A DNA stretch of 41,581 nucleotides from a virus. Under the pieces are notes generated by a model. The model saw only the letters and a list, made by a program, of their open reading frames with translations. It was not told where the DNA came from and ran no database searches. Shown here piece by piece: positions 9,165-41,181 of this stretch. Every line of letters begins with the position of its first letter. Positions within the stretch are counted from its first letter, which is position 1. The stretch spans positions 1-41,581 of the IMG/VR virus record IMGVR_UViG_3300042484_000751; one strand, written 5' to 3'. The position numbers were made by a program, and so were the translations under genes.

Positions 9165-12100
9165 TTAAGGATGTGTCTTTTTGTATGCCTCAAAGTCTGC
9201 TTTCAATTCCTTAATGGCTTCAACCAGAACACCAATCACGTTGGTATACTTAATACCCATGTAACCGTCATCATCAGTTGTTACTACTTCTGGTAAGACT
9301 TCTTTAACTTCCTGGGCAATCATACCGATTGCAGATGTATTGCTGTCTTTCCATGTGAAGGTAACACCGCGTAGAGCATCAACAGCATCCAAAGCACCCG
9401 TAACAGTCATGATATTCTTCTTCAATCTCTTATCTGATGAAGAATTGTAATCAGTAGATGTTAACAAACCTGTAGAAGGATTAAAGAACAGCTTAGTATT
9501 AGAAATAGTTTGCGGAAGGTTACCAGATGTTGACGAGACGAAAGTTGGAAAAAAGCTTGCGTTGGTTGAGGTATCGTTAGTAATAGCAGTATTGGTAGCG
9601 TTTGTTGCCGCAGCTACCGTACCAGATACGCTTACGGTAACGGCTCCTGTTCCTCCACTTACAGAAATATTAGTACCAGCTACCAGGCTTGTTACACCGG
9701 TATTAGTAATAGTTTGATTTGGAAAACTTCCTGATACGCTTATAGCCGTTCCTGCAACTGTGGCAGGAGAAGAAGTTCCTGTACCTCCATTAGCTACTGG
9801 TAATGTACCTGTAACGCCAGACGATAATGGTAATCCCGTTCCACTAGTCAATACAATAGCTGAAGGGGTCCCTAGTGCTGGAGTAACAAGAGTTGGGCTA
9901 TTTGCAAATACCAATGCACCTGAACCAGTTTCATCTGAAATAACTCCTGCTAATTGCGAAGATGTTGTTGCTCCAAATTGAGCTAGAGTTCCTGCAGTTG
10001 TGGCAATTCCTGTCACTGCTCCTGAACTACCGTTAACAGAGATGACCCCGGTGTTAGTAATAACAGGTGTTGAACCTTCTCCGGTAGCTGTACCTACTGT
10101 GATACCACTACCAGCAGTCATTGAGGTTACATAATCTCCTGTTGTATCTGTACCAAGACGAACAGAATTAGGTTGAATACTTGCATTAAATGTACCGCCA
10201 TCGGCAGTACCAATAGTAAAGGTGTTACCTGAAGCGCTGAAAGTTGATACACCAGCAACGTTAACGTTAGCTGCGCTGGTAATTCGACCGAAGGTATCAA
10301 CCGTAAATACTGGTACCTTGGCTGCACCGCCGTATGTATTAGCTGTAACACCGGATGCTCCAGCAACTGTTGTACCATTAATTTTAAATACTTTACCTGA
10401 AGCTAGATCTATGTCTTGGCTAGATGTCCAAGCATTAGAAGTACTATTATAAAGATAAGTTGCATTTGCTCCAGCAACAGCAATACCGGCGCCATTAGCG
10501 GCTGCGCTATTAGTAGAGCCGCTGGCAACTGTAATAATCTTATCGGCGGTGGACAGTGTAGCAGAGGATACAGTTGTTGTGGTACCTGTAACTTGCAAGT
10601 TACCAGTTATTATCATGTCATGATTGACCGTGGTAGAACCGGTGGCTGCTCCCACTGACAATGTAGTAGCTGCTTTTGCAAAGTTAACCGTTGTTGCAGT
10701 TGTATTAATTAGATCAAATGATGCACTCGGGGTAGTAAGTGATGTTGTAATTGCTGGGCTTGTACCAAATACTAATACACCGGTACCGGTCTCATCGGTA
10801 ATTAATGTACGTAAATTAGCACTTGTAGGTTCTTGACCTAAGAATGTAGCAACTCCAGTACCAAAACCAGTAATATCTGTATCAAGACGAACAGAATTAG
10901 GTTGGATACTAGCATTAAATGTACCGCCATCTGCTGTACCAATTGTAAACGTGTTACCAGAGGCTGCAAATGTAGAAACACCGGCTACATTAACGTTAGC
11001 TGCGCTAGTAATTCTACCAAAGGTATCAACTGTAAATACCGGTACCTTGGCTGCACCGCCGTATGTATTAGCTGTAACACCGGATATTGCTAAAGATATG
11101 GTAGGTGTAGCATCTTCAGTACCAAAATTCGTACCCGTTAGACCTGTTCCAGGTACAACATTAGAAAGATAATTACCAGTAGTATCTCTACCTAGAACAA
11201 CTGAGTCTGGTTGAATACTTGCAGAGAATGTACCACCATCGGCAGTACCAATTGTAAACGTGTTACCAGAGGCTGCAAATGTAGAAACACCGGCTACGTT
11301 AACGTTAGCTGCGCTGGTAATTCGACCGAAGGTATCAACTGTAAATACTGGCACCTTGGCTGCTCCACCGTAAGTATTAGCAGTAACTCCAGAGGCTCCA
11401 ACAGCTGTTGTACCATTAATCTTCAGCACTTTACCAGAAGCAAGATTAATATCTTGGCTAGAAGTCCATGCAGTAGTTGCATGTACGTAGTTAAATGTAG
11501 CACTTGCACCATCAACGGTAATACCAGCTCCATCAGCAGCAGTACTGTTGGCAGCACCCTTGGCAATAGTAATGTTCTTATCAGCAACCTCAAGGGTTGT
11601 AGAAGAAACTGTAGTTGTCGAGCCAAGGACGATTAAGTTCCCATTAACAGTAACATTACCAGCTGTTAGATCACCAGCTCCGGATCCGCTTGGCGTTACC
11701 ACCGACAAGCCCCCGGCATTGTTGGTAAGTTGCAAACCACCCAGGTGAATAGTATTACCAGCTAGATAAAGATCTTTAAACTGATTAGTTGGGCTACCCA
11801 GGCTTTGAATTAAATTACCTGAAGGAATTAAATTACCAACCGTAATATTCTGTCCAGTTAATGCAGTTGCAAGCATTACATTAGAGATTGCACCGGTTGA
11901 ACCTCCAACCGATTCTACCAATGCGCTAACAATTATACCAGTTGCCTGTTCAACCCACTGTGAACTTGTACCATCGTCAAAGTATAAGTACGTAGTTCCG
12001 TCATCTTCATCAATCCATTGATCACCAATGTTCGGTGAACCAGGAGCATTTGCAGATACGGTAACATTTGCAATATTGGTAAAGTTAAATACACCAGTAC

Positions 12101-15100
12101 TGTTATTATATTGACCTTTAGTACCTGTTATAGATAAGGCAGCTCTTGCATTAGCATCGGTATATGTACCAGATGCAGATATGATACCGTTTGCAGTATC
12201 ATATGTAATACCAGTACCGGCTGTTATAGATTGTCTGGATCTAGCATTTGTAAAATACAGATTTGTTAATTCGGCAACATCAGCTGTAGTAATTGTACTT
12301 ACAGGTTTCTGTATAACAATATTACCAACCATTCCTGCGTGAACGGAGCATTGATAGACATATGTACTGCCGTTTAATGAATATGGTACTTTCCAAAATA
12401 ATTTACCAGTAACCTTGCCTTGAGCAGAAGAACCGGTTGTTACAGTTCCATCAGTTGCTACATGTGTTAAACCTGTATCGTAATTTGATCCTCCAGATGA
12501 TACTCTGATCATGAAAGGGTGACCGGTAACATTTAAATCAAATGATATAGTTTCCCCGGCAGTTACATAAATTGTAGGATTATTGCCAGAATATGAATCT
12601 AACAAAAAGTTCATTCCACTATTAGTAACCGCTAGTTGTGTTACTGCTGGTATTTCTGCAAGTATAGCTCTTGAATTAGAAAAATATAGATTAGTTAATT
12701 CAGCTACGTTTGCAGTCGTTAATACACCAGAAGATGTAACGGCAGAAGCAAGTTGTGCATTAGATACAGCACCGGTTGCTCCACCAACAGAAGAAACGCC
12801 TGATACAAGGGCTACGTTGGCAGCAGATGTAATTCTACCGAATTCATCAACGTTAATAACAGGAATATTCAACGCACTACCATATGTAGTAGCAATAACA
12901 CCTGTCTTAGCTTCACCGCTCAACAACGTTGCAACGTTACCGCCCAGACCAGATACCCCGGTACTGATTGGCAACCCTGTTGCATTGGTAAGAGTAGCTG
13001 AAGAAGGCGTTCCAAGTGCTGGAGTTACCAACGTCGGGCTGTTACTAAACACTACATTACCAGAACCTGTTTCATCGGTAATAGCAAATGCAAGCTTAGC
13101 ACTTGTTGGATCTGCCAAGAACGTTGCAACGTTAGCACCAAGACCGCTGACTCCAGAACTAATTGGCAATCCAGTTGCATTAGTCAATACCGCTGTTGAA
13201 GGAGTACCGAGGTTAGGTGTTGTAAGTACTGGGCTTGTTGAGAATACAACGTTACCGGTACCTGTCTCATCAGAGATTAAAGTAGCAAGTTCAGCAGATG
13301 TGGTTGAAGCAAATTGTGAAAGACCGTTAGCAGTGCTTGCAATACCGGTAACAGCACCAACTTGTCCATTAACAGATGTAACTTTAGCAGCTGTGTACGT
13401 GGTGCTGATTTCAGAACCATTCCACACACCAGTAGTAATAGTACCAACTGATGTTAAGTTAGATGCAACAACGTTAGGACCAAGGCCAGTTGCACTCAAT
13501 ACCTGGTTATTGTTTACTTTGTAAACCTTACCAGTAGCAAGATCAACATCTTGGCTAGAAGTAAATGCTGTAGTGGCGTGCACGTAGTTTAACGTTGCAT
13601 TAGCACCATCGATTGTGATACCTGCACCATCGGCGGTTGCGCTATCAGCAGCGCCTTTGGCTAAAGTAATATTTTTATCTGCAACATTTAATGTTGTGGA
13701 TGATACAGTTGTTGTAGTACCTTGAACAACCAAGTTACCAGCAATAACCATATTATTTAATATGTTAGTATTACCAGTAGCAGCACCAATGTTAACTGTA
13801 GTACCTGCTCCAGCAAAATTAACTGTAGTCGCACCTGTATTAACTAAGTCAAAAGATCCACTAGGTGTAGTTAATGATGTAGTGATTGCTGGACTCGTAC
13901 CAAATACCAATGCACCGGTACCGGTCTCATCAGTAATATAAGCTGCTAAGTTAGCGCTTGTAGGTTCTTGACCTAAAAATGTAGCTGTACCAGTACCTAA
14001 ACCACTGACACCAGTACTGATTGGCAGACCAGTCGCGTTTGTTAGAGTAGCAGCAGATGGTGTTCCTAAGTTAGGAGTAACCATGACTGGTGAGTTAGAG
14101 AACAGAATATTACCTGTTCCTGTTTCATCGGTGACTGCAGCTGCAAGATTAGCAGAAGAAGGCGTTGCTAAGAAAGTTGCTACACCAGTACCGAGTCCGC
14201 TGATACCTGTTGCGACTGGCAAACCTGTTGCGTTAGTCAATACTGCGTAAGAAGCTGTACCAATGTTAGGAGTAATTAAAACTGGGCTATCAGAGAATAC
14301 CAAGGAACCAGAACCGGTTTCATCTGAAACAAGAGTTCTAACTTCTGCGGAAGTAGTAGAGGCAAATTGTGCTAGTGAGTTAGCTGTGGTTGCAAAACCA
14401 GTAGCATTACCTGTCTGACCGTTAACAGACAAAACACCAGAGTTATTAATAGTAGGTGTTGTACCTTCGTTACCGAGACCGGAAATTGTAATACCGGTAC
14501 CAGCAACCAAGTTACTAACATACGCACCAGTAGTATCACGACCTAAAGTAACAGAATCTGGCTGAATAGAGGCAGAGAATGAACCGCCATCGGCAGTACC
14601 AATTGTAAAAGTATTACCAGAAGCGGTAAATGTTGAAACACCTGCAACACTGACGTTAGCGGCAGAAGTAATTCTACCGAATGTATCAACTGTAATAACT
14701 GGGACTTGAGAAGCACCACCGTAGGTGTTGGCAGTGACACCAGATGTATTTAAAGAGACATTACCTGTTGTAGCATTGTATGCAATTGGACCACCAGCAG
14801 CTGCATCAATTGAATTGCGTGCTCTTGATGTGGTGAAATACAGATTACCACCTTCGGCAACATTAGATGTATTCAATACACCTGATGCGGTAATACCAGC
14901 TGCCAATTGAGCATTTGATATAGCACCAGTAGCACCACCAACCGAAGTAACACCGCCGGTAATTGTAATTACACCAGTAGTATTATCATAGGAACCAGCG
15001 CCAGCAACTGAAATTGCAGCTCTTGCTCGCGCATTTGTAAAGTACTGATTAGTACCTTCAGTTACTGTGGTTGTGGTAAGAGCGGTGGAATTTAATTTCC

Positions 15101-15194
15101 ATGCTGAACCATTGTATGTCCAAGTCTTACCACCAAATGCATATGTATCATTGGTATTTGGACTTGATGGAAAATTAAGTGTTGCACCTGACAT
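9165..15194 (-). CDS. Giant tail fibre with internal cupredoxin fold and C-terminal S74 chaperone
   Basis: A 2009-residue fibre. Residues 1-36 repeat the LNFPSSPxxNxTYxFxGKTW module of the 842-residue fibre. Most of the chain is alternating repeat modules: SDETGTGxLVFxxSP with TNATGLPxxTGxSGLG, TYGGAxxVPVxTVDTFGRI, and NLxVxGTTTTVSSTTL. About residues 855-965 form a plastocyanin-like domain with H892 in GHPFM and C949, H952 and M955 in CSVHAGM. About 1045-1085 is a GDQWID...YFDDG...WVE module also found in the 501-residue fibre. The last 90 residues are an S74 intramolecular chaperone (SSDKRLKKNI, predicted dyad S1920 and K1925), which would trimerise the fibre and cut itself off. It has its own late promoter and an AAGGAA ribosome site. 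Confidence 0.92.
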   Translation of the reverse strand: MSGATLNFPSSPNTNDTYAFGGKTWTYNGSAWKLNSTALTTTTVTEGTNQYFTNARARAAISVAGAGSYDNTTGVITITGGVTSVGGATGAISNAQLAAGITASGVLNTSNVAEGGNLYFTTSRARNSIDAAAGGPIAYNATTGNVSLNTSGVTANTYGGASQVPVITVDTFGRITSAANVSVAGVSTFTASGNTFTIGTADGGSFSASIQPDSVTLGRDTTGAYVSNLVAGTGITISGLGNEGTTPTINNSGVLSVNGQTGNATGFATTANSLAQFASTTSAEVRTLVSDETGSGSLVFSDSPVLITPNIGTASYAVLTNATGLPVATGISGLGTGVATFLATPSSANLAAAVTDETGTGNILFSNSPVMVTPNLGTPSAATLTNATGLPISTGVSGLGTGTATFLGQEPTSANLAAYITDETGTGALVFGTSPAITTSLTTPSGSFDLVNTGATTVNFAGAGTTVNIGAATGNTNILNNMVIAGNLVVQGTTTTVSSTTLNVADKNITLAKGAADSATADGAGITIDGANATLNYVHATTAFTSSQDVDLATGKVYKVNNNQVLSATGLGPNVVASNLTSVGTITTGVWNGSEISTTYTAAKVTSVNGQVGAVTGIASTANGLSQFASTTSAELATLISDETGTGNVVFSTSPVLTTPNLGTPSTAVLTNATGLPISSGVSGLGANVATFLADPTSAKLAFAITDETGSGNVVFSNSPTLVTPALGTPSSATLTNATGLPISTGVSGLGGNVATLLSGEAKTGVIATTYGSALNIPVINVDEFGRITSAANVALVSGVSSVGGATGAVSNAQLASAVTSSGVLTTANVAELTNLYFSNSRAILAEIPAVTQLAVTNSGMNFLLDSYSGNNPTIYVTAGETISFDLNVTGHPFMIRVSSGGSNYDTGLTHVATDGTVTTGSSAQGKVTGKLFWKVPYSLNGSTYVYQCSVHAGMVGNIVIQKPVSTITTADVAELTNLYFTNARSRQSITAGTGITYDTANGIISASGTYTDANARAALSITGTKGQYNNSTGVFNFTNIANVTVSANAPGSPNIGDQWIDEDDGTTYLYFDDGTSSQWVEQATGIIVSALVESVGGSTGAISNVMLATALTGQNITVGNLIPSGNLIQSLGSPTNQFKDLYLAGNTIHLGGLQLTNNAGGLSVVTPSGSGAGDLTAGNVTVNGNLIVLGSTTTVSSTTLEVADKNITIAKGAANSTAADGAGITVDGASATFNYVHATTAWTSSQDINLASGKVLKINGTTAVGASGVTANTYGGAAKVPVFTVDTFGRITSAANVNVAGVSTFAASGNTFTIGTADGGTFSASIQPDSVVLGRDTTGNYLSNVVPGTGLTGTNFGTEDATPTISLAISGVTANTYGGAAKVPVFTVDTFGRITSAANVNVAGVSTFAASGNTFTIGTADGGTFNASIQPNSVRLDTDITGFGTGVATFLGQEPTSANLRTLITDETGTGVLVFGTSPAITTSLTTPSASFDLINTTATTVNFAKAATTLSVGAATGSTTVNHDMIITGNLQVTGTTTTVSSATLSTADKIITVASGSTNSAAANGAGIAVAGANATYLYNSTSNAWTSSQDIDLASGKVFKINGTTVAGASGVTANTYGGAAKVPVFTVDTFGRITSAANVNVAGVSTFSASGNTFTIGTADGGTFNASIQPNSVRLGTDTTGDYVTSMTAGSGITVGTATGEGSTPVITNTGVISVNGSSGAVTGIATTAGTLAQFGATTSSQLAGVISDETGSGALVFANSPTLVTPALGTPSAIVLTSGTGLPLSSGVTGTLPVANGGTGTSSPATVAGTAISVSGSFPNQTITNTGVTSLVAGTNISVSGGTGAVTVSVSGTVAAATNATNTAITNDTSTNASFFPTFVSSTSGNLPQTISNTKLFFNPSTGLLTSTDYNSSSDKRLKKNIMTVTGALDAVDALRGVTFTWKDSNTSAIGMIAQEVKEVLPEVVTTDDDGYMGIKYTNVIGVLVEAIKELKADFEAYKKTHP
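10312..10356. repeat. 45-base direct repeat, copy 1 (fibre gene)
   Basis: Identical over 45 bases to 11041-11085. It encodes part of the TYGGAAKVPVFTVDTF module and belongs to a longer diverged unit that includes 10190-10360. Confidence 0.85.
10936..10988. repeat. 53-base direct repeat, copy 1 (fibre gene)
   Basis: Identical over 53 bases to 11245-11297, at a 309-base offset, inside a longer near-identical unit (about 10921-11085 against 11230-11394). It encodes the ASGNTFTIGTADGG region. Confidence 0.85.
11041..11085. repeat. 45-base direct repeat, copy 2 (fibre gene)
   Basis: Second exact copy of 10312-10356, 729 bases away (243 codons), so recombination between the copies would stay in frame. 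Confidence 0.85.
11245..11297. repeat. 53-base direct repeat, copy 2 (fibre gene)
   Basis: Second exact copy of 10936-10988. The 309-base spacing is 103 codons, so unequal exchange would lengthen or shorten the fibre without a frameshift. Confidence 0.85.
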
Positions 15195-20526: not shown

Positions 20527-21249
20527 CTATTTTCTTGGTTCTCTAAGCTCGCTATTATAAACACTATGTCTAGCGCATTGTTTAGCTTCTAATTTTTTAT
20601 TTTTATTAATTTCATTTACAGTTGACACTCTTACTTTAACAGATCTTGGAATATTTTTTCTTTTAAAAGGTATTACTGTTACCAAGGGTGTCCCGGCCTC
20701 TAATGTTCCATCAAAATCTTTAATATGCCACATTGCGGGGAAGTTTATTGTCTGATCAAATACATCCGTGTCAACAACTCCAGATAAGCACGTGAATCTA
20801 GGATCAAAGTGATTAATCGGGGGAATAATTAAAACAGAATAACCAGGCGCAGTCTTAATGAACCATCTATTTATAAACTTTAAAGGCATGGTAGGTGATC
20901 CAGGGTAATTATTACCTACCTGTGCAATATGGTGGGTTTGAATTGCAGGTATCGGTATTTCAGGTATATCTAATAATTTACCATCCTTACTTACTCTTAA
21001 ATTAATAGTACCAGATAACGGGATTATATAACCTAAAGACATAGCATCTAATAAAGGTAAACATTTTTTAGCTGTAGTCATCTTGCGGCCCCAAGTATCT
21101 CTCGGGACACTTGGATCTTCAATATGCTGAGGTAGTCTTTTAAACCAATCAGGTATATCTTTATATGCAGGAATCGGCTCTGGTATTACTCCAAAAAATT
21201 CTGGTTTACAATGAAACTCAATAATATCATCTTTAAAAAAAATACTCAT
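20527..21249 (-). CDS. DUF6065-like conserved protein, unknown function
   Basis: A 240-residue protein resembling a family I recall as DUF6065, found in phages and bacteria near 2OG oxygenases. Characteristic segments are IPDWFKRLP (near residue 34), TTAKKCLPLLDAMSLGYIIP, KFINRWFIKTAPGYSVLIIP, LSGVVDTDVFDQTINFPAMW, and GTPLVTVIPFKR. No known catalytic motif is visible. The ATG at 21247-21249 overlaps the oxygenase stop as ATGA, so I prefer it to the longer ORF from 21273. The coupling implies that the two products act together, perhaps with this one as substrate-recognition partner, which is inference. Confidence 0.72.
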   Translation of the reverse strand: MSIFFKDDIIEFHCKPEFFGVIPEPIPAYKDIPDWFKRLPQHIEDPSVPRDTWGRKMTTAKKCLPLLDAMSLGYIIPLSGTINLRVSKDGKLLDIPEIPIPAIQTHHIAQVGNNYPGSPTMPLKFINRWFIKTAPGYSVLIIPPINHFDPRFTCLSGVVDTDVFDQTINFPAMWHIKDFDGTLEAGTPLVTVIPFKRKNIPRSVKVRVSTVNEINKNKKLEAKQCARHSVYNSELREPRK

Positions 21250-21845
21250 TTTAGTTTTGGCCCATTTACCCATGTAACAAGAGTCTTTCTTTCTCCTGCA
21301 GTCACATTTGTTACAGTGTGAGGTATATGAGAATAAAATAATAACATGTCTCCACGTTCTAATTCATACTCAACGTGCGTATCCGGGTTACCGCTAAAAT
21401 TAAATAGAAGATTACCACCTTCATATTCTTCCTGTTTAGAAAGCATTACAATTATAGAGAGCTTTCTAACATAACCCTCTTCGTTAAGTTTATTTGTAGA
21501 ATCAATGTGCCATTTATAATGACTACTTTCTTCCGATTTATACTTAGAAAATTGAATACCATCAAAATTAATTAGATCTAGTTGAAACTTATCATAGTTT
21601 ATTTTTGCAACTATTTCATTAATTTTTTTAAAGAGCCATATATTGTCTTCATCAGGTTGTATCCATGTTACGTTGACGTCTCTAATATCAAGATCTTTAG
21701 ACTCTTCATCCGCAGATCCAATAACACCCTTAGTAAATTCTGCATACTCCCCTATAGTATCAATAGTTTGCAAGTCCTCTTCATTAAAAGCTCCACGCCA
21801 CAATACTGCTTGCTCAATATCCGAAACATATTTAAAAATCTTCAT
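21246..21845 (-). CDS. 2-oxoglutarate/Fe(II)-dependent oxygenase (PKHD/prolyl-hydroxylase type)
   Basis: A 199-residue predicted dioxygenase with the full facial triad: H113 and D115 in YKWHID, the distal H176 in SHIPHTV, and the 2OG-binding R186 in GERKTLVTW ten residues later. The EEYEGGNLLF and ERGDMLLFYSH segments are typical of the PKHD-type double-stranded beta helix. Substrates of phage members are unknown; protein side-chain hydroxylation is most likely by family. It lies inside the fibre cluster and is ATGA-coupled to the DUF6065-like gene, so a virion or host-surface target is a reasonable guess. Its ribosome site is weak. Confidence 0.9.
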   Translation of the reverse strand: MKIFKYVSDIEQAVLWRGAFNEEDLQTIDTIGEYAEFTKGVIGSADEESKDLDIRDVNVTWIQPDEDNIWLFKKINEIVAKINYDKFQLDLINFDGIQFSKYKSEESSHYKWHIDSTNKLNEEGYVRKLSIIVMLSKQEEYEGGNLLFNFSGNPDTHVEYELERGDMLLFYSHIPHTVTNVTAGERKTLVTWVNGPKLK

Positions 21846-30547: not shown

Positions 30548-32686
30548 TTATAATTTGAGTACTGTTCTAAGAGTAACTAATTGTTGTTCGCTGTAACTTA
30601 CCGCTGTTCTATTATCTATAAACAACAAGTCACCGCTAAATTTATTTATATCGGGAGTTCTATCAATTACGGTCACTACATAATTAAGATTAGAAGTTTC
30701 ATCAGTTAAAACATTACCTACTACTAATGCGTAATTATTTTTGTCTTGAAGTAGTAATTGATTAGAAGAACTTGTAATCTCTACGACTTCATAGTTACGC
30801 TTAGCTCCATGTATTGTAATAGTTAAAATATCGTCGCGAGCAAGCCCAGAAACAGTATCGGTAGTTACCAAATAGCATGCGCTCCCGGTAACGTTAGCAT
30901 ATGCTTGATCGTTTGTAAACTTATCTATATCTCTTATGATACCAAACTGTCTGTAATCATTCTGTACCAAGACACCATGATTCTTTTCATTATTTATAGT
31001 AGATGTAAACATCAAAGTATCTGCAAATAATTCTTTAACTGGATCACTTCCATGGCCTCCAGTAGGAGAAATAATAGCTGATACATTAGCGTTTGCACCA
31101 TTACCAGTTATGGTTACATTAGCAAACGTATACCCTACCCCTGGTGCTTGCACGGTAATATAACTGATGGTGTTATTTGCAAGCACTACGTTACCTGCAA
31201 ATCCTACCCCGTCTCCTGCAACTACTACATTGGCATAAGAATAACCACTACCTACATTGGCAATTCTAAAAGCATGAATACCTCCATCAATAGCTGATAA
31301 TTCAACCACCGTCTGTAAAGTATCTAGATCATCTACTGAAAGATTAGGAAAGGCATTAGCACCACTTCCTGTAGCGCTTGCAAAAGTTATTTCTAAATGA
31401 GTATAACCATTACCGCGTTCTTCAATTATAACATCTTCAACTTGTCCAGCGGCATTAACAAACGGAGTTAAAACTGCACCAGTACCATCACCTATTAAAG
31501 AAATGGTAGTATTTAAATTTGAGGAATAATTAATGCCACCATCTTCAATTAGCACTCTTTCCAATTGCCCATTAACCAATACAGGGGTAAGAACTGCGCT
31601 GGTAGAGAAGTTTAAATTAGCAGTAGCATTTGAAGTTGGTTGACTGCTACCGGTCGTTGCTATACTGATGGTGGTATTTGATCTTGCATCAGGCGAATAA
31701 CCATAGCCTTTATTAGTTAAAGTAACCCCTACTATTGAATTACTGGTACTACCATAAACAAGACTTGCAAATGCATTAGCCGTTGGCTGAAAGGCACCAG
31801 TAGTTGCTATAGTTACAGTAGTATTATTTCTTACATTTGTAAAGTATCCAGCTCCTGTGCTGTAAATACTGACATTACTGATATTATTAAATTCACTATG
31901 CCCAGAATAACCAGAATTGTTTATTCTTATATTTGCAGATTTATATTTTGCGCCAGCATTATCTATCAATACCTTAATAAATTCACCAGATGTATTAAAT
32001 ACTGGTCTAATATTAGCAATTGAATTACCTGAGCCTCCAGTAAATTCACCAAGAACCGAAAGTGAAACCAATGCGTTACCGGTGTAGCCTGAACCGTTAC
32101 TATCTATAGTTATACTACTTACTTCACCTCTAGAATAAAAAGCATTAGTTACCGCTCTCTGCACCGGCATAAATGAAGCTGTAAGAAATCTATTCTGAGC
32201 CGATAGGGGGATAGTATACATATACTTCCAAACATATCCATCGGCTGTAGTAAGAGTGGTAACGTCTTGCCCGGAGGGTTCAACGGTTGAAGCTGCTCCA
32301 TTATTATTAAAAATACACTTATATACTGCAAAGGTACTGGTCAGTACATAAAATTGAGATGCCTTTAAACTAGTTGCACCAGATTCGGAAGTAAAAGTTG
32401 AACTGTAATTACCATCGTATTGATCATATACGGTACCTGTTTCCCAATCATATCTAGGTACTACAAAAGATACGTCTCTTAAGTTTATTCTTTTAATACT
32501 TAAAATACCATTTCGCGTATAATGTTCGTAGTCCTGGGTTACCTCAGGTGTCTGGGGGGTAGCAGGTACAGCCCATTCTAAAATATTACCAATAAAATAG
32601 TAATAGTTAGCTCTACGAGACAAAAACTCATTATAAACCGATTCCACCAATGAGCGGTGAATGGTATCCTTTAAAAGAAAAGACAT
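30548..32686 (-). CDS. 8: Baseplate wedge protein gp8, enlarged
   Basis: The N-terminal 190 residues match gp8: RANYYYFIGNILEWAVPATP, NGILSIKRINLRDVSFVVPR, then FAVYKCIFNNNGAASTVEPS and TTADGYVWKYMYTIPLSAQN. At 712 residues it is about twice T4 gp8 (334). The extra length comes from a series of imperfect beta repeats (about 200-560) built on GxGYxxxxxVxxxG: NGSGYTGNAL, GAGYFTNV, GYGYSPDA, GNGYTHLE, GSGYSYAN and GVGYTFAN. The family end resumes with KELFADTLMFTSTINNEKNH. It would form part of the wedge that contacts gp7 and gp10. Two perfect TATAAATA octamers (30643-30650, 30991-30998) fall inside its 3' part. Confidence 0.9.
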   Translation of the reverse strand: MSFLLKDTIHRSLVESVYNEFLSRRANYYYFIGNILEWAVPATPQTPEVTQDYEHYTRNGILSIKRINLRDVSFVVPRYDWETGTVYDQYDGNYSSTFTSESGATSLKASQFYVLTSTFAVYKCIFNNNGAASTVEPSGQDVTTLTTADGYVWKYMYTIPLSAQNRFLTASFMPVQRAVTNAFYSRGEVSSITIDSNGSGYTGNALVSLSVLGEFTGGSGNSIANIRPVFNTSGEFIKVLIDNAGAKYKSANIRINNSGYSGHSEFNNISNVSIYSTGAGYFTNVRNNTTVTIATTGAFQPTANAFASLVYGSTSNSIVGVTLTNKGYGYSPDARSNTTISIATTGSSQPTSNATANLNFSTSAVLTPVLVNGQLERVLIEDGGINYSSNLNTTISLIGDGTGAVLTPFVNAAGQVEDVIIEERGNGYTHLEITFASATGSGANAFPNLSVDDLDTLQTVVELSAIDGGIHAFRIANVGSGYSYANVVVAGDGVGFAGNVVLANNTISYITVQAPGVGYTFANVTITGNGANANVSAIISPTGGHGSDPVKELFADTLMFTSTINNEKNHGVLVQNDYRQFGIIRDIDKFTNDQAYANVTGSACYLVTTDTVSGLARDDILTITIHGAKRNYEVVEITSSSNQLLLQDKNNYALVVGNVLTDETSNLNYVVTVIDRTPDINKFSGDLLFIDNRTAVSYSEQQLVTLRTVLKL
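30643..30650 (-). promoter_or_regulatory. Possible internal late promoter before the DUF4815-type gene
   Basis: Perfect TATAAATA on the minus strand within the end of gp8 (codons of DINKF), 108 bases upstream of the DUF4815-type gene. It could give extra late transcription of that gene, or be a chance codon match. Confidence 0.35.
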
Positions 32687-33166: not shown

Positions 33167-35305
33167 TTAAAATACAATCACTGATGACCCAGCATAAATT
33201 TCATCAAAGTAATCTATCGCATAATCTACAAGTATGCCTGAGCCAGTATCAGTGATTGAAACATTACTTATATTATTATCAATATTCTTATTAAATACTT
33301 GCGAAAGCTCTTCAGATAATGATAAGCTATCATTTACTAATGAACTTCCTGATATATCATTTAAAATAGATAGTACATTTACATTATCAGAAAATGCGTC
33401 AAGTGTTTGAACTATGTTAATGGATTCAGAAATAGTTACAGTATCAGATACTGGTTTAAACACATTTAATGATATAAAACTATCAGATATACTTACTACA
33501 TTTGCAAGTGGTTTTTGCAATTGATATGCTCTACTATCCAGCGTACTGAATACACTGTTAAGTTGTGTAAATACATTTTTAGCAGAAACCACTTCCACAT
33601 TGGCACTAACATTCGCAATAGTAGTCAGGGCTCTATTTACAAATAAATTAGTACCAGCTTGATGTACCAATTTTTTAACAATATTATAGAAAACACTTAT
33701 ATCAAGCTCAGATTCAACTTGGTATGCAAATGGCTGATACAGATTCTTATCTTGTAAACGTACATCAGGTTCGGATAAAAAGCCCTGAGTCGCCATATAT
33801 TCACCTGGATACTTTGCAATAGCTCCTATATCAAACGTTATGATAGCATCAGAGGGGTTAGAAATACCTACAGAGGTTGCTGAAATAATTGCTTGAGAAG
33901 TCGTACTTGAAGAAGCTAATAAATTACCAGTATATGCAAAAGGTGTAACATAATCTGAATCAAAATATCTGGTTGAGTCAGTTGTAGAATGAATTCCTAT
34001 TAAAGTAAAACTTTCTTGGAATCCTCCTGCAGTAGTAGCAAAATATTTAGTAGATGTGGCCACTCCCAATGCATTGGATAAGGTAATAGTAAAATTACTA
34101 CTATAATTATAACCAAAATTAATAAACTTTAAAGTTTGAATTGATCCGTTAGATCCAACCTTAGTAATTCTAACTAAAGTATCTTGACCTCCGATGGTAA
34201 GATTAAATACTTCTCCTACTCTAAATCCCGTACCCCCGAAACTAACTTGGTATGAAGTAGTAGTTGGTTTTACAATACCAGTGAAAATAGTACTAGTTAA
34301 GCTTTTTACAAATACATTATCATCTATTTCAAAAGGAACATCAACTAAACTCTTATAAAATATTTCATAAAGATTTGTAGCTAGAGTCTTTACTCTGACT
34401 ATTTCAACAGTATAAGCAATATTATTTTTTACAAGATTTAAAAACCTATCTTGAAGGTTAGTTACGCTACCAGAGGTTAATAGTACCCGTATAGATGTAC
34501 GGAAACTCCATTTTCCATCGGATGGTCTTAATACAAAATCATAAGGATGACTGGTAGTTGCAACAGTATCATATAAAACTTTAAAAAGTGTTTCTATAGA
34601 AAGGGTACTACCCTTGGCCTTATACAACCCTTCTATCTTTTTAACTAAGAGTGATTTGTTAACTTGTAGACTTATAGGTAGGTCACTTGCATAATTAGTT
34701 AAAAAATAATTTACAAAACTAGATGTAGTTTTATCTATATCACTGTACTGTCTGGCATTTTGTACTAATTCAAGAGCACCTTGATCTTGCTCTAAAAATT
34801 TATAATAATACTCTAAAAACGCCACAAAGGTGGTATAGTCAGACCTGATAAACTCAGGTAGCTGACTGCTTATTAAATCAGATACTCGGTCTTTTATTCT
34901 TTCAGTACTTACGGTATTGGTATTAGGGGTATTATCAATGTAAAGTATACTCAATGAATCATTTATTATAGAACTATCGGTGAGAGATTGTTCTACTACC
35001 GTGCCACTTATACTCAAGACTCCCTGCATGCTGGAATGAATTTGACAGATATAGTATAAGGTAGAGGGGGCATCATTTGGAACTGTGAAGGATATTGTTC
35101 CAACAGCAACCCCATTATTAGTAACTCCATCATTATAAGCACTACCTGTACCAGTTACTGCAGCTGTCTTTATCCAAAAAGGATGACCAGTTGCATTAAC
35201 GTTAAAGGTATAGGTATTTCCTCTGACTAAATTAAGAGTTGGATTACTATTACCATCAATGCTATAGGCTCCTGCGCCTACATTAGTTACTGCAAATGTG
35301 GTCAT
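33167..35305 (-). CDS. Baseplate wedge (gp7-position) protein with N-terminal cupredoxin fold
   Basis: A 712-residue protein between gp6 and gp8. Residues 1-103 are a plastocyanin-like beta sandwich with all four type-1 copper ligands: H41 in GHPFW and C87, H90 and M93 in ICQIHSSM. About 130-270 is the helical segment seen in cyanophage-type wedge proteins (LPEFIRSDYTTFVAFLEYYY, then KFLEQDQGALELVQ and IEGLYKAKGSTLSIETLFKV). Beta repeats follow (FGGTGFRVGEVFNLTIGGQD), and the C-terminal 150 residues are low-complexity Asn/Ser/Val/Asp-rich. T4 gp7 is longer (1032) and I do not claim strict orthology. It starts one base after the gp6 stop, so the two are coupled. Confidence 0.82.
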   Translation of the reverse strand: MTTFAVTNVGAGAYSIDGNSNPTLNLVRGNTYTFNVNATGHPFWIKTAAVTGTGSAYNDGVTNNGVAVGTISFTVPNDAPSTLYYICQIHSSMQGVLSISGTVVEQSLTDSSIINDSLSILYIDNTPNTNTVSTERIKDRVSDLISSQLPEFIRSDYTTFVAFLEYYYKFLEQDQGALELVQNARQYSDIDKTTSSFVNYFLTNYASDLPISLQVNKSLLVKKIEGLYKAKGSTLSIETLFKVLYDTVATTSHPYDFVLRPSDGKWSFRTSIRVLLTSGSVTNLQDRFLNLVKNNIAYTVEIVRVKTLATNLYEIFYKSLVDVPFEIDDNVFVKSLTSTIFTGIVKPTTTSYQVSFGGTGFRVGEVFNLTIGGQDTLVRITKVGSNGSIQTLKFINFGYNYSSNFTITLSNALGVATSTKYFATTAGGFQESFTLIGIHSTTDSTRYFDSDYVTPFAYTGNLLASSSTTSQAIISATSVGISNPSDAIITFDIGAIAKYPGEYMATQGFLSEPDVRLQDKNLYQPFAYQVESELDISVFYNIVKKLVHQAGTNLFVNRALTTIANVSANVEVVSAKNVFTQLNSVFSTLDSRAYQLQKPLANVVSISDSFISLNVFKPVSDTVTISESINIVQTLDAFSDNVNVLSILNDISGSSLVNDSLSLSEELSQVFNKNIDNNISNVSITDTGSGILVDYAIDYFDEIYAGSSVIVF

Positions 35306-35306
35306 A

Positions 35307-37154
35307 TTATACTGAAGAGGTTACAGTAATAGTTGTACCGGCAACCAAGCCCCCGGCCTTATTAGTTGTAGTATCATCTAGTAGTAAAATTTCATTTCTT
35401 GAAACAGTCAAATTATAATTAGCTTCCTGTATAGTTCCTGTAATCCGGATATCCGTTACTCCGGCTGGAATACCCGATGGAGTAATACCAGTTAAAGAGA
35501 TAATTCCTGTTCCATAATCTACTGTACCGACATTTGAAGATACAATAGCATTATTAACGATATTAACAAGCCTTAGTACACCAGAGCCGTTATCGTTTGG
35601 AGGGGTATCATTTGGAAGATCTGTAATTTTTACCAGCGTCGAAACTCCACTAACAGAGATAAAAAAGAAGCTAGAAAGTATAGACCCAGGCTTTAATGGA
35701 TTTCTAAATTTTACAGCGGTATCCCCGGTAAATAAATTAGTAGTATTTAAAACAGGTATAATTCTACGTTGTAACTTAAGAGTAAGCAAGGCGCTGGTAA
35801 TAGAGTTATTAGTACTGAGAATATCTTTTATCAAAGCTGAATGAATATAATTCTTATTAAACTTTTGTACGTTATTAGTAAAGAAGTTAGTTATGGTAGT
35901 ATTAACCTGGGCTCTTATTTGTTCAGAAGATAAGGTAGTAATAGAAGAATTAAACTTTATATCAGCAGTAAGATTTACAAAGAATAATGAAGGATCAACA
36001 AAGACTGGGGTAACAGTAATACCTTGTTTAGACTTTAGAATATTATTTTTGATTGATTCTTTAGTAGCATCAGAAATAGTAAAAGAGGAAAATGGTTTTA
36101 AGGATATAATTACTCTACCATAATAGGGAGGATCATTATCCTCACCACCCCATACCGAAACAGATTCTGCTCCTGCATAATTAGCTAAGATCAACGCCTC
36201 ATAATCGGTAGCAGTAACTGCTCTGTTCTTTGCTGCATTAACCCTGGGAGCATTAAACTTAATTGAGGTAATGCTTTCAGCATCCGCGCCACCTGTTGAA
36301 TTACTGTTAACGGTAATTGCAATACTACTTGATCCCCCTATTGTGGTTCCGGCGGTAAAGGATTGAGTTATCGTACTTGATACGTTAACTACAGAACCTG
36401 TAGCAACCATGTATTGTATAGTAACGATATTACCAAACGTTAAACTCTTACCTAATACTCCGTCACCGAAAAATATTTGATACTTACCCTGGGGATTCTG
36501 TTCAAGAAAATAGATTTCTGATGTATCACTTATCCCGGTAATATCGGTAGATAGGGAATAGGTGGTAGTTGTGGTATCAGAAGATGAGGTCTGTACGCTG
36601 ACTTTAATAGTAGTTGTATCTACCGATTCACTGGGTATCTCGTATTTTGCATTAGGTGTGATATCGGTAACAACATAACTAAAAGACAGCAAAGTACCTT
36701 CCGTAACATCGGTATCAGCAAAAGTGTAGGTTGTACCTACCCTGGAAGCAGTCTTAGCCTCGGTGGTAAGGAAAGTATATGATATCCCATCTACTGTAGA
36801 TGTAAAGGGAGTATATCGATCCATTGTCAAGGATGCAGGCAAGTTAGATGGATTGGTAACTACTATGTCTAAGTTTGCTACTGCCCCCCTTGCCGATACC
36901 GGTGTATAACCTAAATGCTTGGCAATAGAAACTGCAGAAGATCTCTTAACTGCAGAATCTAAGAACATCTCATTTACCACCATATTAGCCAGATAAGCGT
37001 TGTAATGGGTATTATAGGCTAAGATATCCAATAGAGTAGATAATCCTGATCCTTCAAAATCATAATCGGTAAATTCGGTTTGAGCGTTTAAAAACGTTTT
37101 TAAGTTTGACTTAATTTGATCAAAATCAAGTTCGGCTATTCTTAGATTAGACAT
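35307..37154 (-). CDS. 6: Baseplate wedge protein gp6
   Basis: The central wedge component, a baseplate J-like protein that joins neighbouring wedges in the inner ring and supports the sheath-to-hub switch. The 615 residues start MSNLRIAELDFDQIKSNLKT and include FTDYDFEGSGLSTLLDILAY and NTHYNAYLANMVVNEMFLDS, the strongest family signature, followed by GYTPVSARGAVANLDI. A J-like core segment is VNAAKNRAVTATDYEALILA followed by VSVWGGEDNDPPYYGRVIIS. T4 gp6 is 660 residues. The ATG shares one base with the gp25 stop. Confidence 0.95.
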   Translation of the reverse strand: MSNLRIAELDFDQIKSNLKTFLNAQTEFTDYDFEGSGLSTLLDILAYNTHYNAYLANMVVNEMFLDSAVKRSSAVSIAKHLGYTPVSARGAVANLDIVVTNPSNLPASLTMDRYTPFTSTVDGISYTFLTTEAKTASRVGTTYTFADTDVTEGTLLSFSYVVTDITPNAKYEIPSESVDTTTIKVSVQTSSSDTTTTTYSLSTDITGISDTSEIYFLEQNPQGKYQIFFGDGVLGKSLTFGNIVTIQYMVATGSVVNVSSTITQSFTAGTTIGGSSSIAITVNSNSTGGADAESITSIKFNAPRVNAAKNRAVTATDYEALILANYAGAESVSVWGGEDNDPPYYGRVIISLKPFSSFTISDATKESIKNNILKSKQGITVTPVFVDPSLFFVNLTADIKFNSSITTLSSEQIRAQVNTTITNFFTNNVQKFNKNYIHSALIKDILSTNNSITSALLTLKLQRRIIPVLNTTNLFTGDTAVKFRNPLKPGSILSSFFFISVSGVSTLVKITDLPNDTPPNDNGSGVLRLVNIVNNAIVSSNVGTVDYGTGIISLTGITPSGIPAGVTDIRITGTIQEANYNLTVSRNEILLLDDTTTNKAGGLVAGTTITVTSSV

Positions 37155-37562: not shown

Positions 37563-37808
37563 TCAGTTTGCGAAGGTATTCGAGCTTCCTTCACGGATAC
37601 TATCGTTTCTTGTGTCTCTATCTCCTATTCTACAAATCCCTCTTCCGTTTGCAAAAACTTTAGAGCTTCCCCCTACCATTGTATCCAGGCGTGTATCCCT
37701 ATCACCGATTCTAACAACACCAAACCCGTTTACAAAAACGGTAGAGCTTCCATTATTCTTAGTATCGTTTCTGGTGTCTTTATCACCAATTCTTGCAATC
37801 CCAGCCAT
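37563..37808 (-). CDS. PAAR-type spike tip protein with three internal repeats
   Basis: The 81-residue needle tip corresponds to T4 gp5.4. It is made of three near-identical units of 27-28 residues, each RIGDxDTRxDxxxxGSSxxFxNGxG (RIGD at residues 6, 33 and 60). This would give the pseudo-threefold fold that caps a trimeric spike with a single chain. It contains no His, so the usual PAAR zinc site is not evident. The only candidate ligand is Cys59. It starts on the last base of the spike gene (37808) and is followed directly by the gp25 promoter. Confidence 0.88.
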   Translation of the reverse strand: MAGIARIGDKDTRNDTKNNGSSTVFVNGFGVVRIGDRDTRLDTMVGGSSKVFANGRGICRIGDRDTRNDSIREGSSNTFAN

Positions 37809-40096
37809 TATGCTAATTGTGTTAGACCCTGGGAGTGGGTCTTATGGTTATAGAAAGTTAATACCTGACTTCTATTCTTAACAGAATAGGAAATATGAAT
37901 CCAAGGATTTTTTGCATAGCTGCAATACTCTAATATCATTTGATCGTATTTAAGAACTTTTGCAAGTTTAGTAGCTATTTCAAAATATTCTTTCTTTGTA
38001 ATGCCTTTAAATTGTATATCTACGCCTTGACCGAGAGGGTGCTGGGAGGTCTTAGCATTAGATGCATTCCCTGGATCCCTGAAGGCTGATGTAACAAACA
38101 TATTAGGGTATATCTTCTTTACTGGTTCAAGCACATTAAGCGCTATAGCCTGTAGATTAAAAATGATTTCCCCGTAAGTAGCTTTTTCATGACCCCGGAT
38201 AAGGTCCCGGGTAACTGCTGCTTTACTTGATAACATCTCAACTGTAAAGTTTGGCGATAGATTATAATTACCTGGCAATTGCGTTACAGTTTTTAACTTA
38301 ACATCTGGTTCAACAAAGTTCTGCTGCTCAGATTCCACTGTTGCATTATCTACTGCAGTCGGTGGTTCTGATAAATCAGCTGCATTAGCAAATCCTTCAC
38401 TTATAATTAAATTCTTTTGACTATTAAAGTCTTCTAGAGATTGAGTTTCTTCTTCTAATGCAATCGACCGACTATCGGCTAAAGAAAGAACCAAAGGATC
38501 ATTTTTATCGTTATCGGTTATATCTTTGCGGCCTGCAATCACCCCAATCTTAGAAGATCCTGCAATAATGCTTTCTTGAGATTCAGAAGCAGCACCGGCA
38601 TTACCTGATTGTAGGTGTGTTTCACTGCCATCGAGATTAACGCTATTACTAGCTAGTAAATTAATTGCTGCACCAGAATCAATATTAGTATTATCTCCAG
38701 CTTTAATATTGATAGCTCCGGCTGCTTGAGTGTAAACAGTATCGGAAACAAAGTCATAGAGATTTGTTGCTTGCACTTTAATATCAGCATTACTACGCAT
38801 ATGCATATTTTCCTTTGAATGCATATTTAATGTAGTAGCTTTTTGATTCATGGTATAGTATGCTTCAATATTTACATTACCACTCGCTATATTAAACTCT
38901 TCTACAGCTGAAAGATTAAACGTGCCTCCTGCCTGGGCGGTAATATCGTTATGACAGGTTAAGTTAACGTCACCCTCTACCTCAATATTAGCATCATTAC
39001 CAACAAAAATATTACACGCACCATTAATTGAAATATCTGCTTTACCAGCTATTGATATTTTTCCATTACGATCAATAATTTCATATGAAGATCCTTTTGT
39101 TCTTTTAACCATCGAGCCATTAGCATCTATTTCAATATAGGTACCAGACTTATGATAAATGTGAAGACGTTCTGAACCTGGGGTATCATCAATTTCAATA
39201 ATATGACCAGATTCAGTTTGAGTTACTTTATTATACGGATATGCACCACGGTAAGCTGACTCGGGTTCATCCCATGCCTCACCTCCAGGGAGTTTGGCAC
39301 CCTTCATCCTATTATTATTTTTTTCTTGAACTATTGTACCCCGGGCATCACCCTGGGCAAGTTTATTAGTCTCTGAAATACCCGCATACTCTTTAGTAGG
39401 GTAATTAGCATTAGGGTCGGTAAACCCTCTTTCTAATACTTCTAATTTTTCTCTATTTTCAGTAGAGTTAATATCAAACTGTTTAGCCTCTTGTAGAGCA
39501 GAATTAGCACCACTTGATACAAATATTTCATCTGCTTTATTTAATGCTTCTTCAGGAGGAAAGTTACCAAATAAAGTTTCAATATTATTAGTTGTTACTT
39601 TAGGTTTCTGACCTCTACCAAATATAGCATCTGCAAAGCCCCCGACTGCAGTAGTAAGAGTCTTTCCAACAGTTGGTGTAATGCCCTGGATTAAGCTTGC
39701 TGATAATGCATCAAAATTTATAATACCTAATTTATCAGTAGGTAGAGATAGTCTTAATTGAGATTGTAATTTACTAACTATCTTATCGGTAGTTTGTAAA
39801 AGTAATTGCTGTTGAATAATACCATCAATGTTATTGCTGATGGTAGTAGGGCTATTATTATTATTAGTAATATTTACCGGATTTATAGATCCAATAATAT
39901 TTTTAGGTATATCGGTAAGTTGTTGATTCGAGGCTTGACTTACCTGCCTTACAATATCAACTGCCCCTACCTCAGCCACCCTCGATATTACCGCCCTTAG
40001 TATAGGGTTAGGTATATTTAAGTTGAGAGCAATAATCTTGTTAAAGATACTGTTCTCAAGTACACCTTGTATTTGTTTAGTTATTAAGGGATCCAT
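37808..40096 (-). CDS. Central spike beta-helix protein with C-terminal M15 peptidase
   Basis: A 762-residue needle protein. Residues about 1-260 are helical and Gln/Asn-rich (LQTTDKIVSKLQSQLRLSL) and may bind the hub. About 295-520 match the gp5/VgrG-type spike: GHIIEIDDTPGSERLHIYHK, SGTYIEIDANGSMVKRTKGS, then repeated short beta strands (SINGACNIFVGNDANIEVEG) typical of a triple-stranded helix. About 600-762 are a D,D-peptidase (M15) domain with zinc ligands H686 and D693 (HPLGQGVD) and H734 (WIHIS), and catalytic E723. T4 has the spike and a lysozyme in one gp5 chain; here the spike is separate and carries a different hydrolase. TAATG-coupled to the upstream OB/hydrolase gene. Confidence 0.88.
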   Translation of the reverse strand: MDPLITKQIQGVLENSIFNKIIALNLNIPNPILRAVISRVAEVGAVDIVRQVSQASNQQLTDIPKNIIGSINPVNITNNNNSPTTISNNIDGIIQQQLLLQTTDKIVSKLQSQLRLSLPTDKLGIINFDALSASLIQGITPTVGKTLTTAVGGFADAIFGRGQKPKVTTNNIETLFGNFPPEEALNKADEIFVSSGANSALQEAKQFDINSTENREKLEVLERGFTDPNANYPTKEYAGISETNKLAQGDARGTIVQEKNNNRMKGAKLPGGEAWDEPESAYRGAYPYNKVTQTESGHIIEIDDTPGSERLHIYHKSGTYIEIDANGSMVKRTKGSSYEIIDRNGKISIAGKADISINGACNIFVGNDANIEVEGDVNLTCHNDITAQAGGTFNLSAVEEFNIASGNVNIEAYYTMNQKATTLNMHSKENMHMRSNADIKVQATNLYDFVSDTVYTQAAGAINIKAGDNTNIDSGAAINLLASNSVNLDGSETHLQSGNAGAASESQESIIAGSSKIGVIAGRKDITDNDKNDPLVLSLADSRSIALEEETQSLEDFNSQKNLIISEGFANAADLSEPPTAVDNATVESEQQNFVEPDVKLKTVTQLPGNYNLSPNFTVEMLSSKAAVTRDLIRGHEKATYGEIIFNLQAIALNVLEPVKKIYPNMFVTSAFRDPGNASNAKTSQHPLGQGVDIQFKGITKKEYFEIATKLAKVLKYDQMILEYCSYAKNPWIHISYSVKNRSQVLTFYNHKTHSQGLTQLA

Positions 40097-41181
40097 TAGG
40101 TAATCAATTTAAGTAGTGCTTGTTTTTCTGATTGATAACGCGATTTAACACCAGCTCGTATAGATTCCGAACTTGATTTAAATAAAGTATCGACGTTATT
40201 AATTTTATATTCGCTTACCAGGGTTACGATGTCTTTATCTGTAAGGGTACTTTTATCTCTTAACGCCTCGGTAAAAGCCTTAATATTAGCAGGACCAAAT
40301 TGTACTGCCCCTGACCAAATTAAATCCTGGACTGCAGGCCCGTACTTAGTTAAATCTAATCCTTTTCTTTGCAGATTTGATACTGCTACATCGTAATATT
40401 TCTTTTGAATATAATCGTGTTGTTCTTTTTTAAAGTCTGCAGCATTTGTAGTTGCAATCTCTTTCCATTTAGCATCAAAGGCAGCCGTGGCAGGTTCTAA
40501 CCCTGCAAATTTTTCTTTAAACTTAGAGTTGTTTAAAAATTGAATAACAGGAGAGTTTTTAGCTGATGGTCTTGCTTTACCTGTTGACATAACTGCTGGT
40601 AAGAAAGATGCAAGTTGATAGGTACCGTAAGATGCACCACCTAGATCGCCACCTGCACCTCCATTGTACGCATTAATCGTACCTGGACCCTTGCCACCGG
40701 ATTCATATTTTTCAGATGTTTGACCAAGCTCCCAACCTTCAACAGTTGGTGTACCGACCTTAACTGGCTCACCTTGACCGTCAACAACTATATTACCTGA
40801 ACCGTCTTTAAGTACTCCATCGTTAGGGTTAGATACTTGAGGTTTTTCTTCTAGTACTCTAAATGCTTTATTAGCTGCCTTGGTTGCAATAGTACCAAAG
40901 ATGGCCGGTTGCTGCATGTCTTCACCATCAAGGAAGAATCCAATGACCCATGTACCTTCAACAGGCCCTAGCGGTGAAGAACCAATACCTGAAATGGCAG
41001 CCGAGGTGATAGGTTGTATAGGAGTTGCCCAGGGAAGATCTTTTGTAGGAAGAATTACTTTATTGTCTGTATGATAGCCGTATATACGAACTCTACATCT
41101 ACCCATTTTTTCAGGATCCATGCGATCTTCTACGACCCCAATCCACCAATTAAAACCATCCTTGTTAAAAATTCTTTGCAT
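40096..41181 (-). CDS. 5: gp5-like hub OB-fold protein fused to a VgrG3-like cell-wall hydrolase
   Basis: Residues 1-100 are the gp5 N-terminal OB domain (WWIGVVEDRMDPEKMGRCRV, LPWATPIQPITSAAISGIGS, then GTWVIGFFLDGEDMQQPAIF), which mounts the spike on the hub. After a Gly-rich linker, residues about 150-361 resemble the C-terminal hydrolase of VgrG3: YESGGKGPGTINAYNGG and GGDLGGASYGTYQLAS, with probable catalytic acid E160 and conserved D179. This replaces the T4-type lysozyme of gp5 and would cut the peptidoglycan glycan chain. The spike gene starts on its last base. Confidence 0.9.
   Translation of the reverse strand: MQRIFNKDGFNWWIGVVEDRMDPEKMGRCRVRIYGYHTDNKVILPTKDLPWATPIQPITSAAISGIGSSPLGPVEGTWVIGFFLDGEDMQQPAIFGTIATKAANKAFRVLEEKPQVSNPNDGVLKDGSGNIVVDGQGEPVKVGTPTVEGWELGQTSEKYESGGKGPGTINAYNGGAGGDLGGASYGTYQLASFLPAVMSTGKARPSAKNSPVIQFLNNSKFKEKFAGLEPATAAFDAKWKEIATTNAADFKKEQHDYIQKKYYDVAVSNLQRKGLDLTKYGPAVQDLIWSGAVQFGPANIKAFTEALRDKSTLTDKDIVTLVSEYKINNVDTLFKSSSESIRAGVKSRYQSEKQALLKLIT

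Follow-up and report, generated by a model that had tools for sequence, protein, structure and literature searches.

A cupredoxin domain with a very probably selected metal-ligand set in a baseplate wedge protein of an uncultured aquatic T4-like phage

The DNA analyzed here (41,581 nucleotides, called the window throughout) comes from a linear virus record of 41.6 kb. The genes around the locus of interest are arranged in the order gp5, gp25, gp6, a gene for a 712-aa protein, a gene for a 146-aa protein, and gp8 (Table 1). Because of this gene order, and because its residues 137-412 match phrog_17744, the 712-aa protein was assigned as the gp7-position baseplate wedge protein. Lying between gp6 and gp8 and matching a wedge profile, it belongs with the T4-type wedge protein gp7; its score against PF23786 was under the cut-off (20.3 versus 27). 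The nearest relatives of the gp6 encoded in the window, at 39-43% identity, came from Kyanoviridae phages that infect Pelagibacter and Methylophilales. The source is an uncultured aquatic T4-like phage. The gp5 of the window is apparently split in two (37808-41181, minus strand): 40096-41181 encodes the N-terminal part, and 37808-40096 a hub protein, the C-terminal portion of which matched an M15-type peptidase/endolysin (phrog_894, 1.1e-17). A separate OB-domain gene is also present in phage Melnitz. The tail region of the window additionally contains a 2OG-Fe(II) oxygenase-like gene (21246-21845, minus strand; phrog_61, 2.7e-32).

Table 1. Features of the gp7-position locus and of the tail-fibre copy, in window coordinates
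Feature	Position	Strand	Evidence or motif
gp7-position baseplate wedge protein, 712 aa	33167..35305	-	ORF, start at 35305; phrog_17744, 4e-42
Baseplate wedge part of gp7-position protein, residues 137-412	34070..34897	-	phrog_17744 "baseplate wedge subunit", 4e-42
Cupredoxin domain, residues 1-103	34997..35305	-	Model pLDDT 95.5; PDB fold matches; phrog_677 C-terminal domain, 2.7e-25
H41 codon, first His ligand	35183..35185	-	In GHPFW
C87 codon, Cys ligand	35045..35047	-	In CQIHSSM
H90 codon, second His ligand	35036..35038	-	In CQIHSSM
M93 codon, axial Met ligand	35027..35029	-	In CQIHSSM
gp6 baseplate wedge (context)	35307..37154	-	phrog_219, 1.1e-157
gp8 baseplate wedge (context)	30548..32686	-	phrog_438, 3.3e-105
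Second, diverged cupredoxin-like copy in 2009-aa S74 tail fibre (9165-15194)	12309..12641	-	37% identity, 7.8e-10

The N-terminal domain of the 712-aa protein was modeled with AlphaFold2 from an alignment of 54 domains (A1). The model was all-beta and of high confidence (pTM 0.88; pLDDT in Table 1). When it was compared with the PDB by Foldseek, all 44 matches at E<=0.001 were copper proteins of the cupredoxin fold, among them AcoP, rusticyanin, plastocyanin, three-domain copper nitrite reductase, multicopper oxidases, and CuA domains, with TM scores (query) of about 0.43-0.64. Model and PDB matches thus agree on the Greek-key beta-sandwich that defines the superfamily. In the model, H41 lies in the loop directly preceding strand 43-46, C87 closes strand 82-87, and H90 and M93 are both found in the loop ahead of the final strand. 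As judged by strands and loops, the predicted placement of the four ligands is the usual cupredoxin arrangement.

A second approach relied on sequence profiles. The window domain itself matched none of the Pfam or NCBIfam copper models (PF00127 Copper-bind; plastocyanin, amicyanin, halocyanin, pseudoazurin), and a single-sequence search of the PDB gave nothing relevant. Copper-bind was matched weakly by nine of the 54 relatives (best 0.0015), and a homologous bacterial carrier (L124) scored above the Pfam cut-off for this model (24.5 versus 21.2 bits). Searched against the PDB, the A1 profile matched a copper nitrite reductase (4e-4). Matches to PF25489 (At5g54830-like) and DUF4352 were at or under the cut-off. 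The family profile was then aligned with PF00127 Copper-bind domains taken from bacterial genomes. Against the short plastocyanin-like domains, the alignment extended over 78 columns (probability 91.5, E 8.5e-7 for one comparison) and paired H with H, C with C, H with H, and M with M at the same positions. Against the longer azurin/AcoP-like domains, hhalign aligned the C-terminal loop alone, with low probability. The cupredoxin domain and the intact type-1 ligand set proposed in the initial annotation are hence borne out by the fold search, by the profile alignments, and by the conservation seen among homologues (see below), and the assignment of the fold to residues 1-103 is close to certain.

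The ligand residues named there, H41, C87, H90, and M93 in the motifs GHPFW and CQIHSSM, were all found in the translated open reading frame. Plastocyanin has a C-x2-H-x4-M loop and amicyanin a C-x2-H-x2-M loop; the spacing of C87, H90, and M93 is that of amicyanin. The likeness to amicyanin concerns the site only, as the NCBIfam amicyanin model was not matched by the window protein. In classical blue-copper sites the residue after the first His is usually Asn or Ser, and in this family it is a nearly invariant Pro (177 of 178 domains). His, Cys, His, and Met or Gln occupy the equivalent positions of the superfamily, each ligand being present in at least 173 of 178 relatives.

Some members of the cupredoxin fold bind no metal. 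The first viral scan used query peptides that included ligands and the bacterial scan required GHPF, so that neither set was free of bias. In a second viral scan, the seed was the ligand-free stretch of residues 43-86 (alignment A2). The initial annotation had named conservation in homologues as one of two points on which its copper site would stand or fall, and H, C, H, and M were all present in 52 of the 55 unique new domains obtained in this way. A chance motif was ruled out by this conservation in a ligand-blind sample together with the fold.

Among the pooled 178 domains, H41 was lost in four, C87 in five, H90 in five, and M93 in one, where it is replaced by Gln. All five losses of C87 were to Ser and coincided with the five losses of H90, and the four H41 losses all fell within the same five domains (hypergeometric p, ancestry ignored: 7e-10 for C87/H90 and 1.2e-7 for H41). 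On the tree, two of the C87-less domains (L165 and L073) grouped together and the other three stood apart, many forks being weak; at least four separate joint losses are thus the safer count. An intact second copy was also present in four of the five carriers of C87-less domains. M93 was retained where the other ligands are gone, consistent with its being a weakly bound axial ligand or a residue that contributes to packing. Another conserved pair, Y32-L83, covaried more strongly than the ligands, and covariation as such is therefore not unique to them; the Y32-L83 signal is probably a subfamily effect.

Cysteine is otherwise scarce in these proteins. C87 is the sole Cys among the 712 residues of the window protein, which has only five His and three Met; this scarcity, too, speaks against a chance motif. 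Of the 111 Cys residues inside the domain in 93 viral carriers, 109 were the ligand, leaving two non-ligand Cys in 11,129 residues. Outside the domain, Cys made up 0.19% of residues, and 42 of the 93 carriers had none there.

These observations bear on the idea that the domain is a metal-free scaffold, an adhesin or spacer in which the four residues are kept solely for packing or hydrogen bonds. Such a scaffold would agree with the equal conservation of the non-ligand residues P42, Y85, F43, and K46, with the existence of ligand-less copies that are still found in tail fibres, and with the shuffling of the domain to many positions, as seen for other beta-sandwich modules of tails. It does not account well for the set-wise loss of the ligands in several lineages or for the near absence of Cys elsewhere, and we regard it as unlikely. 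The same holds for the dead fold serving as an adhesin scaffold, a role offered in the initial annotation: dead copies do occur elsewhere, but the gp7 copy is unlikely to be one. Conservation and joint loss of the ligands instead point to a metal site kept by selection within a shuffled tail and baseplate module. It is highly likely that the ligand set is maintained as a metal site, and the copper-type site of the gp7 domain is very probably real and selected.

The window contains a second copy of the domain in its S74 tail fibre. This copy keeps H, C, H, and M, and no Cys other than its ligand, residue 949, occurs among the 2009 residues of the fibre. Its model was poor (pLDDT 76.2) and gave no significant PDB match; the copy is thus identified by sequence only. 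Beyond the window, the domain was matched in 354 phage records, mainly of Synechococcus and Prochlorococcus phages, as well as in hundreds of viral contigs and in secreted bacterial proteins. A search of plasmids for the domain gave no match. In cyanophages such as S-ShM2 (L140) it forms the C terminus of gp9 (phrog_677), and residues 1-100 of the window domain aligned with positions 305-409 of the 412 in that profile. In P-SSM2 and Bellamy it lies within fibre-like proteins, and in the podoviruses P-SCSP2 and P-GSP1 near the N terminus of tail-region proteins. The N-terminal gp7 arrangement of the window recurred in one contig (L009). In HTVC008M, Melnitz, and Mosig, no copy was found in the gp7-position gene; in Mosig, the domain is found in the gene next to it. 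Thus, the gp7-position carrier named in the initial annotation stands, but the domain is not peculiar to one baseplate wedge protein: it is a module that has been shuffled widely among the tail proteins of phages from marine and fresh waters, the C terminus of cyanophage gp9, which lacks annotation, being one instance. In BFVD, 59 viral proteins matched the model at E<=0.001. Giant-virus "beta-sandwich proteins" of Pithovirus and Marseillevirus (A0A481Z6J5, A0A481Z7Q7, and A0A481YVH3) matched it by fold.

In the tree, bacterial and viral copies were interleaved. With the seed GHPF[WY]IK, the reach of which is limited, the near genome relatives were secreted proteins of Acidobacteriota, Myxococcota, Bacteroidota, Alphaproteobacteria, and others. 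Capture of a host plastocyanin is unsupported, since the near relatives found with this seed of limited reach are non-cyanobacterial secreted proteins. Marine alphaproteobacteria also encode a conserved protein of ~430 aa that contains two cupredoxin-like domains, of which the first is of a distant type (L086, L088, L089, L091-L093, L096, L098, L100, L104, L106, L108, L111, and L112). In an acidobacterial relative (L084:3001-3279), the axial Met is replaced by Gln, a stellacyanin-type variant.

Taken together, the locus is probably best explained by a mobile cupredoxin module with a selected metal site. We envisage that aquatic phages and some bacteria have joined this module, with its intact type-1-like site (H41, C87, H90, and axial M93) maintained by selection, to exposed proteins: to the N terminus of a gp7-like wedge here, and to the gp9 C terminus or the body of tail fibres elsewhere. 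The domain would be a rigid beta-sandwich, its loop end clamped by a bound metal ion, presumably copper once the particle is outside the cell, where the medium is oxic, and possibly zinc when the protein first folds in the cytoplasm. Clamped in this way, it could provide a stable, disulphide-free surface for decoration or adhesion at the tail tip. That the domain turns up in so many unrelated places makes a metal-clamped surface module the simplest interpretation. We favour a structural or adhesive role over redox chemistry, although we give it no more than an even chance.

A redox-active or sensing copper site would have the domain exchange electrons, or sense redox state or copper at the host envelope, and so help trigger the baseplate. 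The complete type-1 ligand set, the nearest folds, which are electron carriers (rusticyanin, AcoP, and plastocyanin), and the location in a gp7-position wedge protein and in gp9 of cyanophages are in keeping with such a function. Its position is highly variable, however, and the closest isolates have no domain in gp7, which places the domain outside the conserved baseplate trigger. Many carriers are moreover long fibres, and no partner is known. Redox triggering or sensing accordingly appears quite improbable.

The identity of the metal is a separate matter. Free copper is very low in the cytoplasm, so that either loading must occur late or the metal loaded there must be a different one. Phage proteins fold in this compartment, where zinc outcompetes copper, and cupredoxins produced there can acquire zinc. 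Zinc or another metal might thus be the physiological ion, in a structural site on the cupredoxin fold. The axial Met and the loop of amicyanin length are typical of copper sites, and the secreted bacterial relatives retain the same ligand set, one with Gln, which makes this a possible but doubtful alternative; the physiological metal is more probably copper. A different role for the metal would be that of a bait, bound copper mimicking a ligand of host copper uptake in the manner of the "Trojan horse" role suggested for iron in tail fibres. There is no receptor evidence, and type-1 copper, being buried and firmly bound, would make a poor bait. Abundance of the domain among aquatic phages and the analogy with iron sites proposed for tail fibres (PMC11705849) speak for a bait, which we nonetheless consider very improbable.

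The recurrence of a domain whose ligands are conserved and lost together suggests that a metal centre missed by annotation is present in many phage particles. Were the site loaded, metal centres overlooked by standard annotation would be present in the virions of abundant aquatic phages, cultured cyanophages included; copper would then influence how stable phages are and how they adsorb, and phages would be a possible copper ligand in natural waters. A far-reaching version, which we put forward only tentatively, is that the particles of many tailed phages from marine and fresh waters are copper metalloproteins, with several to dozens of working type-1 centres per virion on baseplate, fibre connector, and fibres that serve host attachment or redox-gated triggering and form a pool of copper ligands in natural waters. 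The question can be approached directly: the domain is small and might be blue, and ligand-less natural copies and cultured carrier phages exist.

Among known systems, the small blue-copper proteins (rusticyanin, AcoP, plastocyanin, and amicyanin; PF00127) share the sandwich, the His-Cys-His-Met order, and the loops with the window domain. They are free carriers, whereas the window domain is part of a phage structural protein, has a near-invariant Pro after the first His, and has no direct Pfam or NCBIfam match. The C-terminal domain of cyanophage gp9 (phrog_677 "baseplate wedge tail fiber connector", phrog_9158) is homologous to it and retains the ligands in S-ShM2, but is attached at the opposite end of its carrier; copper is unmentioned in the phrog_677 family record. 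The bacterial single-domain relatives (L114, L118, L084, L085, and L126) are up to 69% identical and share the ligand set, L084 with its axial Gln resembling stellacyanin; they have a signal peptide or lipobox where checked and lack a phage part. Cyanophages carry plastocyanin (petE) as a metabolic gene (PMC3037559). This protein is also a cupredoxin and occurs in the same phage group, but is a free photosynthetic carrier, whereas the window domain is a virion module. A literature search covering few subscription journals or preprints returned no paper that connects cupredoxins with phage tails. What came nearest in the literature found was the proposal that HxH motifs hold iron in tail fibres of the T4 gp37 type (PMC11705849). 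Those fibres resemble our proposal in placing a metal in a phage tail protein, and differ from the window domain in using iron and His pairs in a trimeric fibre with no Cys and an unrelated fold.
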